From Irpex lacteus (taxonomy: Eukaryota > Basidiomycota > Agaricomycetes > Polyporales > Irpicaceae), in contig MQVO02000007.1 of assembly GCA_001986395.2 (NCBI GenBank), forward strand, positions 310,001-374,000: DNA of 64,000 bases, read 5' to 3'. Below are positions 19,194 to 24,900 of the stretch, in pieces. The stretch's first letter is position 1; the number at the start of each line of letters is the position of its first letter. Made by a program: the position numbers and the translations under genes. The notes under the pieces are model-generated. The model saw nothing but the letters and a program-made list of their open reading frames with translations, was not told the origin of the DNA and searched no databases.

Positions 19194-20240
19194 CTGTGTA
19201 TCGGGAGTTGCGTTGGTATTCAGTTTATCGGAAAAGTGGCCAGTGTGGTCGGAGGTACGGAACCTACAAGGCTGAAACTGGCGTTGTGAAGTGGGTTCCT
19301 GGCTTCTTGAAGATCTATATGAGGTTTACGAGCTCCTGAGATGTTCGGAAGGAGGTCAAGGTACTTAGGGATAGGTGGTCAGACCATATCCTGGCCCACT
19401 GAAGGATTGAAGGAAAGTGTCAATTGCATGGATAGGTGTTAATGAGTGACCAGTGCCATGGTCGCCAGTACTGCCTAACTGCCTGTGGTTGCAGTAAAGC
19501 GAGATGCCTCATAGTGCCGTGCCGAAGTTTCCTAGAACTCGTCTCCAGGTAGAACTCGTCTCCAGGCGAGTTCCCGACCAGGTCGCCGTCATTCTAGCAC
19601 GGTGGCATTGCAAACAAGTTGGTCTGTCTCCACGTGGATTCCAAACGTCTCGAATGGCGGCCGACAGAGAGACAGCTTCCGCACCCGCCACATTCTTCCT
19701 GTGAGACATTCATCAGAAAATAATATGTATCAATGTCAGAAAATGGTGACCCTATCTGGCCATGTCTTACCAGCAAGAGGCTAGCGACGCCGGCGAACGC
19801 TGCTGGGACACACTCTGTCACTGGCAGATATTGAATACGGCGGCGGGCTGCCAGGAGTAAAATGCATACTATGATCGGTCGTCAGCTGTTCTCGCCAACG
19901 AGATTAATTCATGTAAGAGATGACGGTTCCTTACCACAGAACAATGCGAAACTTCGGACCAACATGAGCGTCGGGGGAATCGAGTATCAGAATTTCTGGA
20001 ATTGTTGTATGAATTCGTGATAGACTAGCCAGGTACACTATGTAATAAGAGGTAATAGGTGCCGGTGATAAGCTATCAAGGTAAAGGAGAAAATGAATAA
20101 TTTTGTAGGCGGCCATCAGCTGGTAAGTAAGCGAAAGTCTACCCGCGGTCGCAACCCTCCTCACCACCGCCGCCATCGTTTCCACCCTTATTCCTTTCTT
20201 TCCTTTCACCACCATCCCGCCCCCCGCGTCCGCTGCAGCC
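19194..20240. other. Intergenic, upstream of the G-alpha gene
   Basis: No gene supported. Two near-identical 15-base stretches at about 19533-19565 (AACTCGTCTCCAGG) form a short tandem repeat. The last 200 bp are the G-alpha promoter and leader. Confidence 0.5.
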
Positions 20241-21986
20241 ATGGGCGCATGCATGTCTTCAGGTCCGATTGAGGTCTCAGAGGAGGACAAGAGGCTGCAC
20301 AGAGAGGCAGAGAAGCAGCTCAAGGAGGTATGTCACGCCTTATCCACCTGGAAATGTCACCCATGCAAACTTTCCTCTGCGCATACAGGCCAAGGCAAAG
20401 ATGGCACATCAAGTCAAGGTGAGACTCTCGCCAACGACAGCTGGAAGCCGACCGACGCGTACTAACGCTTGCGCCCCAGGTCCTGCTACTTGGCTCCGGC
20501 GACTCCGGCAAGTCGACCATTTTAAAGCAGATGCGCCTCATCCACAGGGTCCCTTTCTCCACCCAAGAAGTAGAGTCCTATCGGCAGCTCGTCTTCAACA
20601 ACCTCACCCATGGACTCAAGTACCTGCTCGACGCAATGGTCGACATGGAGCTCGAGGTCTCGGAAGATAACCAGCAGTACATACAGCTAATCGAGGACGC
20701 GCAAGATATTCGCGACGGCCAGCCATACCCCGAAGAGTATCTCGAGCCTCTACGAAGACTCTGGGAGGACCCGAACGTACAGAAGTGCTGGGAGCGAGGT
20801 AATGAGGCTGCACTGCCCGATAAGTGCGTCTTTCTCATCACGCGTTACGTATCATATATCACTCCCGGGTGCTAATAATTCCACCATATTTCAGCTTGAG
20901 CTACTTCTTCGCAGACCTCGACCGGCTGTTTGACCCGACGTACGCGCCAAACGAGCAGGACATTGTCCACACCCGAGCGAGGACGATAGGCATCACTGAG
21001 ACTGTGTTCCACTTGCGGGAGAATGAGATGTTGATGGTCGATGTCGGCGGACAGAAGAGCGAGCGACGGAAGTGGATTCATTGTTTCCAAGACGTGACGA
21101 GTATCCTGTTCTTGGTCAGCTTGAGCGGATACGATCAGTGTTTGATTGAAGACAAGGACGCGGTAAGACTGGCATTCACCTTTCTACTAAGCTCGCGTCA
21201 GATGACTGACCCGGTGTTCGCGCAGAACCAAATGCAAGACGCGATGACCATCTGGGATTCAATATGTCATTCGCAATGGTTCAAGCAGACGTCGATTGTC
21301 AGTGCCTGCTCATCTCAGTTCCCACCCCGTGCATCTGCTAACCATGAGTACCATGCTAGATCCTCTTCTTAAACAAGGATGATCTCTTCCAGAAGAAGAT
21401 TGAGCACTCCGACATTAAGAACTTCTTCCCCGTGAGTGGCGAGCGGCCGTGTGAAGGGCTCCTGGCGTTAAAGTACTGACCGATGCGCCTCTTTCACAGG
21501 ACTTTGACGGCGAGCCGCGCGACGCTCGCGCCGGCCGCGACTACTTCAGGAAACGTTTCGCAAGACTGGCGCAGAAGGCGAATCAGAAGGAACGTGAGAT
21601 ATACATCCAGTGCGTCCATCTCAACTTTCTTTGATAACGATGCTCCGGCATCATTGTTATCATCACCGACGGCGGCCGGTGTACTGACGTATTTCGTACC
21701 GCATCAAGTATCACAACCGCGACGGACACTGCCATGCTTCGAGTGGTCATGGCTGCAGTTGAAGGTACGTGAGAATCAAAGATCGCTCGCGGGCATGACG
21801 GAACTAACGCCACTCTTTGCCTTTGCAGAGTGAGTTCCTTCATTTCATTTTACCCCTTCTTAGTCCCCCACTTTTGGCTTTGGACCTCTATTCTCCCTGT
21901 CTCGCAACGTTCCACGCTCAACTCGCGTATCCTCAACTCTCAGCATCGTCCTTCGTCAAAGTCTCGAGAATGCCGCTTTGATATGA
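20241..21986 (+). CDS. Heterotrimeric G protein alpha subunit with a one-nucleotide exon
   Basis: A GTP-binding G-alpha subunit, 360 residues. Exons: 20241-20327, 20389-20418, 20480-20823, 20895-21162, 21226-21297, 21360-21431, 21500-21609, 21709-21764, 21829 (one base), 21944-21986. N-terminal MGACMSSG fits myristoylation at Gly2 and palmitoylation at Cys4. G1 is GSGDSGKST (residues 44-52) with Asp47 where most G-alphas have Glu. Switch I keeps Arg181 and Thr184 (TRARTIGITET); switch II is DVGGQKSERRKWIHCF with Gln207; G4 is NKDD instead of NKKD; G5 is TTAT instead of TCAT. Without the one-base exon the chain stops at AAVEE; with it residue 347 becomes Asp and the chain ends DIVLRQSLENAALI, the expected alpha-5 helix that contacts receptors. 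Both sides of the single A have strong signals (TTTGCAG before, GTGAGT after). Confidence 0.92.
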
Positions 21987-24900
21987 TCATAATGTCACTC
22001 CGGCATACGAACAGCACGAAGGCCATCCAACAGCAACTTCTTGGTCGTACATTATTACTTTTATATGCATCTGTTGCGTCACCTCTCTCTTCTCTTCTCG
22101 TCCATCTGCTCGCTGTCGCATTGTTTGAACCCTATCGATAACTTTCGTGTAATCCGTCTGTTTCTTTATCTTCGCACTTCCTATTCACTTTCGCTCTTTT
22201 TTCATTTCATTTCATTTTCGTTTTATCATCTATCTTCCGTTTTCGTGGTAATGTCGTGCATGGGAAACTCATATGTCTCTCTCCTCTTTTGACGCGCTCC
22301 CTCCTCCTGCCCTCCCGATCCATCAATGCAATGTTTACACACTCGAATACTCGAAACTCAAAACGTCGTGGGTACTTCTGATCCGCAGTACGCTCATTAG
22401 CCGTAACGTAAGTACCAAGCCCGAAACCTCGTGGGGCCTCCCTCCTCCGGTGTCTAACAATATGCTGACTCGATTTCTATTGTTCTTTGCTAGATTCGCG
22501 AGGTCATGCTATAATTTGGCGCGCCGTGGGGCGGGACGGGTGGGGACAAATACGAAACTCTGCGTCGGCAGGCGATCAAAACTCATGGCCCGCTCATTTA
22601 TCGAGAGGCCGTTGGATCCCGCCGTCCAGGGATCTGGCAGAATCGGGCAGTGTGACTCTGCCTTCCGTATCCCTGCACGGTTTCCAGCTCGTTTCGTCAT
22701 TCCCCGTACTGCGCTCGGTACTCAAGTCGCGCAAGCGAGGGACTATTGCCCCTTTGGTCTTATCCCCGCCCGCCCCCTCCGCCACCGCCGCCAAAAGCAT
22801 GTCAAGCCTCGCCGTTCAGAACAAGTCAAGATAAGAAAAATCGATGTATCCCGATACCAACTCCCATCCAAGTGTTCCAACTCCAATGCTCTGCTTTCTG
22901 TTAATTATCCCCATCCTCATCTCCCTGATCGCCTCATTCACTTCTCTCTTCTTTTTTGGACGTCTCTCTCAGCATGCATGATCATCGGCATCTCACTCTC
23001 ACTCGATCTTACTCTCGCCAATCATCTCCACCCACACCCACACGCTCACACATCTCCCTCCTCACGTATTAATCACCACACACTCCAAACCCGAACCCAC
23101 TCACCGACAATGTACTCTCCTCCTCTCTGTCTCCGCATTCTTCTCATTCTTCTCATCTTCGCCCATCGTCGCCGTCGTCACTTAACTTGTTTATGTCGCC
23201 GTCTCTGTCTGGTCTGGATCTGATTTATTTCTTCCGTGGTTATTCGGGCACCCGAGCGTTTCTTCCGTTCCGTCTGTCCTGTGGATCCGTTGTATGTATC
23301 TGCATGTAGAAGTCAGAGTCGAAGTCTCATGGCAATAGGCTTAATTATACCTTGTTTTATCTTCCTCTCTCGGGTCTGTGTACCTACGTCGGATGGAAAT
23401 GTGGTAGAGAAACGTTGGGGCATGGAAGTCGTGGTAGGGCGCGTACGGCTTGAGAGTGGGTGCGTGGGTGGCATGGGAAATTTCAGAGGCGGAGCCGGGG
23501 TGGAAGAGAGCAGAAAGCTCGTGAGCACGACATGCTCTTGCTTTCTTATCTGAAATCGCCCTCGATACTCCGACCTAGGCCGTGACCGTCTCGCGATCGT
23601 AAATGGGAAAAACAAAAGCAACTGGAATCTATTGAGCGTGCGCTGTCAGTAGTTGCGGCGGTTTTTCGAGCTAGTCGTACTTACTGAGATTTCGGGTCGG
23701 AGATCTTTCCGGTGGAACATTCGTTTCGTCCCTTGGACTGGCCTTGAGGTACGAGTTGTCCTGCTCCCCCTTGCCCTTTCTCCTTTATACAGCGTACCAT
23801 AGCGTACCGTGTCTTCGGGATCGAATGAGAGGCGGTGATTACATCCCGCCTCTCCGGGGTTTCGTGCCTACCGTGACTACTGGCCGATCGACTACTGCAA
23901 TCGCGTGGACAAGGGTCGGCGTTGCGGTCCTATGTGCGAGCCCCTGAGACTCTAAAGCTTTATCAGTAGATCTTCGTAGAACCCGCAAATAGACAGAGTT
24001 GGCTCCGCGGTCGAGCATGCGTTGCGATGTGCTGCTTGCCAGTAGCTACCTTCGAGGACTGGAGACTGTTGAAGGGCAAGACGCTACGAGGAGCAACTTT
24101 CATTCATCATTTATTATATCCCAATTTAATATTGAAGGAAACGAGCACATACTATTGGTTCGGATGTGTTGCAGCATCATATGTGGCAAGCAAGCCGGTG
24201 GCGGTGGCGCGACGACGAGGTTACATGCGGTTGAGCAATATTCACGTTTATTCGCCCTAGCTGGCCTCTGCCACTCCCCTCGCATCCTCGAGGGAGCCCT
24301 TGTTATACATAGGGGCATAGCCGCACGCGGGCGGACCTATGACTCTCACGAGTCTATCACCAGAACGATTAAAAATGATTTGAGAAGTTTATCCGCAGCT
24401 CGAGATGTTCCATTCCTTACTCACGTAAGTAAATCGTTGTGCTGGCGGTGCCATGGAGACTGAGTGGATGTGCGGTCGGTGGACGATTCGGATGCGAACC
24501 TAGCAAAGAAGCCATTTTTGGTCAAACCCCGATCATCTCCACCATTCAAACCCGTACCACCACCATCCGCGGCGAATGGGCGCAAGGCACTCACCATTGA
24601 AAACTGGATGGAAACCGCTTAGCTAACGGCCCTGACCGTCTTGGGAATTGAAGAGTTTTTGCTGGTGCGCCATAAAGTGTGGAGGAACGTTCGACCGTCT
24701 TTGAACGTGAACTGCGACCGAAACGCCCGAGAGCAACGAGCAACATTGTCGGGCTGGTGTTGGTCGCCGACGTGAACGACTTCTGAAGATAGCACCGCAC
24801 TCGACGACTGGATTTTGACACGTCTTCGGTGGTCTGGAGGCTGGGTATGCCCTTTTTGTTGGTTTTCAGATCAAAAGTGATGTAGGAAGCTGATTGCACA

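Follow-up and report, generated by a model that had tools for sequence, protein, structure and literature searches.

The window, a stretch of 64,000 nucleotides that forms part of a 1.6 Mb contig of the 44.3 Mb Irpex lacteus genome, carries a G-alpha gene on its plus strand (20241-22514). Conceptual splicing gives eight ordinary exons, then one base at 21829, and then a terminal exon at 21944-21986 (Table 1). The 360-aa product contains the full-length Pfam G-alpha domain (PF00503; 398.9 bits against a cut-off of 48.8, profile positions 3-333 of 333), which identifies it as a G-protein alpha subunit, and it bears an N-terminal MGxC as well as the nucleotide-binding motifs GSGDSGKST, DVGGQ and NKDD. 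An Irpex rosettiformis (Polyporales, Irpicaceae) protein named 'heterotrimeric G protein alpha subunit 4' is 97% identical to it over 96% of the length. Introns of the gene measure 61-114 nt, apart from the long form of intron 9. Two more exons are very short, with 30 nt (20389-20418) and 19 nt (22389-22407). An Rfam search of positions 20000-23500 at gathering cut-offs gave no match.

Table 1. Features of the G-alpha gene in the window, and its paralogue elsewhere in the genome.
Feature	Position	Strand	Details
G-alpha gene body	exons 20241-20327, 20389-20418, 20480-20823, 20895-21162, 21226-21297, 21360-21431, 21500-21609, 21709-21764	+	conceptual splicing
Intron 8	21765-21828	+	64 nt, GTACGT...TTTGCAG; branch motif CTAAC 21 nt from end; junctions kept in paralogue
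One-nucleotide exon A (putative)	21829	+	second base of codon 347 (Asp); required by both tails
Intron 9, short form	21830-21943	+	114 nt, GTGAGT...CTCTCAG; no CTNAY branch motif within 80 nt of end
Terminal exon A	21944-21986	+	C-ATC-GTC-CTT-CGT..., DIVLRQSLENAALI stop; TGA ends at 21986
Intron 9, long form (inferred alternative)	21830-22388	+	559 nt, GTGAGT...GATCCGCAG
Tail B exon 1	22389-22407	+	19 nt, T-ACG-CTC-ATT-AGC-CGT-AAC; G+A+T gives Asp (GAT), then TLISRN
Intron within tail B	22408-22493	+	86 nt, GTAAGT...TTTGCTAG; branch motifs CTAAC and CTGAC
Tail B terminal exon	22494-22514	+	ATT-CGC-GAG-GTC-ATG-CTA-TAA, IREVML stop
G-alpha paralogue L010	contig C315:608595-610106	minus	exons 78-93%, introns 63-80% identical over aligned positions

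The last base of exon 8 (21764) is the G that opens codon 347; the A at 21829 and the C at 21944 complete GAC (Asp347) and lead into the ending DIVLRQSLENAALI (tail A), so that the 360-aa protein has the C-terminus AAVEDIVLRQSLENAALI. A preliminary description of this DNA had given the same positions, letters and protein length, and both the sequence and conceptual splicing bear them out. It had also stated that without the A the protein ends AAVEE, which is incorrect: skipping the A gives a frameshifted protein of 358 aa with the C-terminus VEASSFVKVSRMPL, and AAVEE-stop is what results from splicing out the first intron alone, with the second retained. When both introns are retained, or only the second is removed, translation ends VEGT-stop. 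The A is a single base between AG and GT within an intronic stretch, and the frame of the conserved protein depends on it, as in a one-nucleotide exon. In a zero-length recursive splice site, the acceptor AG stands immediately before the donor GT and no base is retained. At 21829 one base remains between acceptor and donor, which places the site outside that class; it may still resemble a recursive site in that the joined donor would serve a second splicing step.

Such a site is rarely expected by chance. Position 21829 is the sole AG-N-GT site on the plus strand in 21765-22388 (624 nt), and the stricter pattern [CT]AG-N-GT[AG]AGT occurs a single time in the whole window, both strands included. 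We shuffled the 166-nt core 20,000 times with the outer splice sites fixed and dinucleotides preserved, demanding at least 50 nt in both parts. [CT]AGAGT[AG]AGT appeared in 1 of the 20,000 shuffles, and in none once a CT[AG]A[CT] branch motif was added; the observed site has a motif of this type, the CTAAC of intron 8. Looser patterns were more frequent (AG-N-GT in 2,020 and AGAGT in 552 of the 20,000).

A second tail, DTLISRNIREVML (tail B), begins 559 bases past the A. It ends a protein of 359 aa and is in frame solely through the A at 21829, the frame being lost when this base is omitted. Tail B is intact in the window, with an open frame and four canonical splice ends, and its TLISRN-IREVML is near the family consensus TIISKN-IREIML. 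Both terminal exons are in frame at one locus, and the preliminary description, right as to the one-base exon, was incomplete in overlooking a second ending (22389-22514) that requires the same A. The acceptors of the two tails lie 445 nt apart and both are one base short, a coincidence hard to explain except by a shared upstream one-base exon. No consensus branch motif stands at the usual distance before either of these acceptors.

Homologues in other species were taken as the best 120 of 3,502 matches, comprising 52 transcript-like proteins, 67 models from genome records and one of unstated origin. The transcript-like set comes from short contigs (1.2-3.2 kb) that have no NCBI source. The gene spans 1,746 nt of genomic DNA; since 37 of the 52 contigs fall below this length and yet encode 342-362 uninterrupted residues, we take the set to be cDNA. 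DNA fragments from these same collections served as a control: they run through the intron at EIYIQ, indicating that gene calling there does not remove introns. The homologues fall into two C-terminal types, with the consensus DIVLRxNLExAALI for tail A and DTIISKNIREIML for tail B. Among these best 120, the residue after MAAVE is Asp in all 52 transcript-like proteins, 30 of which carry tail A and 22 tail B (21 assigned by pattern and one, P0118, by eye). Asp is also aligned at this position in G-alpha-q of solved structures, in an alignment that runs into the C-terminal end.

The genome-record models behave differently: none of the 67 among these best 120 combines Asp with a real tail. Twenty-three end AAVEE-stop, as does the record of unstated origin; 21 start the tail with Gly, as expected from reading into the first intron; nine have Gly in place of Asp followed by a real tail of equal length (3 A, 6 B); nine have tail A with an insertion; two skip the A, two begin with V and one is of another kind. 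Real tails are found in these models too (12 A, 6 B). The AAVEE-stop form requires A-R-T-R-R after the acceptor, which A/GTRR supplies. It is found, among others, in Irpex rosettiformis, Punctularia strigosozonata, Bondarzewia mesenterica and Coprinopsis cinerea, that is, in Polyporales, Corticiales, Russulales and Agaricales, and Jaapia argillacea (Jaapiales) has Gly followed by tail B. With Asp in every transcript-like homologue and AAVEE-stop in about a third of the genome-record models, the one-base exon looks conserved across several orders of Agaricomycetes, as judged from proteins, and misannotated. A pattern search for relatives' DNA gave 17 matches in viral contigs and 90 in bacterial or archaeal genome contigs, none of them confirmed. 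As a separate observation, the acceptor of intron 7 (21610-21708) is CATCAAG, of AAG type, and is kept in the paralogue; several genome-record models of relatives (P0005, P0067, P0078) have false insertions at this joint.

A paralogue (L010) in the same genome is about 76% identical in DNA and has the same junctions as the window gene. It retains TTTGCAG/A/GTGAGTTC, with 16 of 16 bases around the A unchanged, and ends the preceding exon with the same GAAG/GTACGT. Its support is modest because the copies are not far diverged. The paralogue's frame is open up to the one-base exon, two motifs are altered (DVGGQ to DVGAQ, NKDD to NNDD), and a search of the 1,464 nt downstream for tails A and B scored at best no higher than shuffled sequence; the copy may be truncated, decaying or dominant-negative-like. 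In two other G-alpha genes of the genome (L001 and L003) the codon at the Asp347 position is unbroken.

The Asp of the transcript-like homologues and the retained junction of the paralogue both support the one-nucleotide exon proposed in the preliminary description. We consider it likely, with a probability of roughly 0.87, that the base at 21829 forms a true one-nucleotide exon, common to two mRNA isoforms of one G-alpha gene. In the window gene, the one instance in which this was seen, both tails lie at a single locus; both mRNAs would then be made from that locus within a single organism. In this view the exon is probably a shared hinge for two receptor-contact helices.

The alternative that survives best keeps the exon as real and constitutive but has Irpex lacteus use tail A only, the tail B exons being a relic or serving other lineages. 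Tail labels are indeed partly clustered on the protein tree, and the far acceptor lies 559 nt off, a long distance next to introns of 61-114 nt, with no branch motif at the usual distance. Yet tail B is intact in the window and close to the family consensus, and 22 of the 52 transcript-like homologues carry it, which makes this reading unlikely.

Another possibility is that the tails mark two separate gene lineages that meet in the window by accident. We built a tree of the upstream protein from those of the 120 proteins whose tail could be recognised (69 in all, 42 with tail A and 27 with tail B), excluding the other 51; the bootstrap of this tail-label tree is not fully settled. The tail labels cluster more than shuffled ones do (1 of 500 shuffles was as low), and the nearest neighbour has the same label in 45 of 69 cases, against 35.9 expected. 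In Armillaria solidipes, moreover, the tails differ between two genes (P0126, P0150), as the two-lineage reading would have it. Against it, the tree requires 16 switches of label, of which at least 10 are forced by well-supported branches, and neither tail formed one clade in any of 200 bootstrap trees. The same A also precedes both tails in the window, and we regard separate lineages as very improbable. No pair with identical bodies and different tails was found in a comparison of 59 A with 39 B proteins (207 proteins in all, with clustering at 90% that would hide such pairs; the further homologue set was the best 120 of 203). A fragment search for such pairs gave 50 proteins. The closest A/B pairs were 94.6% identical over 204 residues and 93.4% over 331.

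Three remaining readings do away with the exon itself, and we give them very little credence. If an assembly or sequencing error had dropped a base, beside the donor of exon 8 or beside the acceptor of the tail, putting it back would likewise restore the frame, across one ordinary intron. This would leave as coincidences the identical GAAG/GTACGT exon end of the paralogue, two acceptors 445 nt apart that are short by the same single base, and the AAVEE-stop in 23 of 67 genome-record models of other species; a lone A with full splice signals is also improbable by chance, as the shuffles indicate. We rejected such an error, which we hold to be barely credible, on the grounds that the paralogue and tail B display the same one-base offset.

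No more plausible is a [D1,2] stwintron, in which an internal intron ending AGAG/ rebuilds the external donor G/TGAGT. The letters permit it, and a start with VEV, the expected result of an AGAG/ acceptor, is found in two genome-record models (P0026, P0060). The G and the A would be lost together, though, turning tail B into VEYAH-stop and putting tail A out of frame, against the Asp of all 52 transcript-like homologues; both actual introns, moreover, have complete sites of their own, unlike the stwintrons described in the available part of the source (PMC5639578). The preliminary description had offered two options for this junction; the nested, stwintron-like unit falls since it destroys both tails, and two ordinary introns removed in sequence remains. 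Least credible of all is a single intron with a non-AG acceptor (ending CA) and Gly for Asp, as in nine of the 67 genome-record models: Gly is found in none of the 52 transcript-like homologues, G-alpha-q of solved structures also aligns an Asp there, and the nine models are what would be expected if cDNA-guided modelling had laid an unplaceable A against the G of the acceptor AG.

For the one-base exon shared by two isoforms, we propose the following order of events. With a single base between them, the acceptor and the donor cannot be engaged together, so the two introns would be removed stepwise, in an order that need not be fixed. A consensus branch motif is present in intron 8, but neither 3' end of intron 9 has one at the usual distance, and for this reason we infer that intron 8 (64 nt) usually leaves first. 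Its removal would set GAAGA against GTGAGT, and this donor could then be joined either to the near acceptor (ending at 21943, tail A) or to the far one (ending at 22388, tail B), two weaker acceptors that would compete once intron 8 is gone. The two resulting G-alpha proteins, 360 and 359 aa long, would be identical up to Asp347 and diverge only beyond it, in the C-terminal helix, which in G proteins generally contacts receptors. Retention of intron 9 would yield the truncated AAVEE protein. In AlphaFold models of hand-picked tailed proteins (20 and 22) the tails are helical but have pLDDT below 50, and we gave them no weight.

More tentatively, and with the odds somewhat against it, the G-alpha gene of mushroom-forming fungi might be a splice-operated selector. 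The one-base exon would be its obligatory last shared exon, the choice of acceptor would swap the receptor-contact helix so that one locus serves two receptor sets, retention of intron 9 would give an uncoupled form, and stepwise splicing would act as a timed decision point. In mammals, one gene for G-alpha-o gives two C-terminal endings through alternative 3' exons. That system differs from the window gene in having no known one-base exon as the joint, and it belongs to another G-alpha subfamily and another kingdom.

One-base exons as such are already documented. The preliminary description rightly called them very rare, but this one is neither unique nor the first in fungi: the CYP621A P450 of Fusarium has a one-nucleotide G exon, seen in 20 orthologues and in RNA reads, and the sections of the paper available to us call it the first for a fungal gene (PMC12940212). 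Like the A of the G-alpha gene, that base lies between AG and GT in a nuclear fungal gene, completes the codon of a conserved motif and is mostly misannotated; unlike it, it belongs to an ascomycete P450 for which those same sections describe a single mRNA and no alternative endings downstream (PMC12940212). In Arabidopsis, APC11 has a constitutive one-nucleotide A exon, demonstrated by cDNA and a base change according to the accessible text (PMC4674806). It too is a single A between AG and GT on which the frame depends, but the gene is a plant one and the exon, as that text presents it, is constitutive and involves no choice of terminal exon (PMC4674806). One-nucleotide microexons of APC11 and VPS55 extend across plants, VPS55 having transcript variants, and the excerpts at hand describe them as deeply conserved in a large clade, absent from annotations and followed by a conserved GTRAGT donor, all of which recalls the G-alpha exon (PMC8831610). 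The VPS55 variants include or drop the exon, whereas in G-alpha the exon would be retained and the following exon would change (PMC8831610, same excerpts).

Other systems are more distant. Ascomycete stwintrons resemble the G-alpha introns in being two introns in close contact that are removed sequentially; there, in the portion of the source consulted, the internal intron splits an element of the outer splice site and the order is fixed, whereas each G-alpha intron has complete sites (PMC5639578). Mitochondrial one-base exons are reported, in the available passages, for placozoan cox1 (PMC5436844) and for Ophiostoma rnl, where the base sits between group II introns (PMC12308204). Again a single base lies between two introns, but these are organelle introns (group II in Ophiostoma) that involve no spliceosome (PMC5436844, PMC12308204; same passages). 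Neither the stwintron nor the recursive-splicing comparison weakens any claim about the exon as such. A one-base last shared exon ahead of two alternative endings in a conserved signalling gene was not found in open-licence PMC texts, no paper on a fungal G-alpha with alternative endings was recognised among the top open-licence PMC matches, and the mushroom transcriptome papers checked for the word made no mention of microexons.

One-base exons are an extreme test of exon recognition by the spliceosome, and few are documented. Here, such an exon is apparently common to much of a fungal class, sits in a core signalling gene and would feed two alternative endings, so the same base would have to be joined correctly in either kind of transcript. 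The exon would also explain why many records end G-alpha too early or with a false tail. Because one letter is needed for either ending, gene-prediction programs would err at the end of the protein in many mushrooms, and the misannotation hides the receptor-contact helix together with a probable second isoform. The 179 nt around the exon would offer a compact natural system for measuring splicing order around a one-base exon.

A match search for a second allele in the Irpex lacteus genome returned only the G-alpha gene itself, the paralogue and one weak match. Elsewhere in the genome, two pairs of contigs (C135/C46 and C264/C308) have G-alpha matches of identical score, as from uncollapsed haplotypes or recent duplicates.
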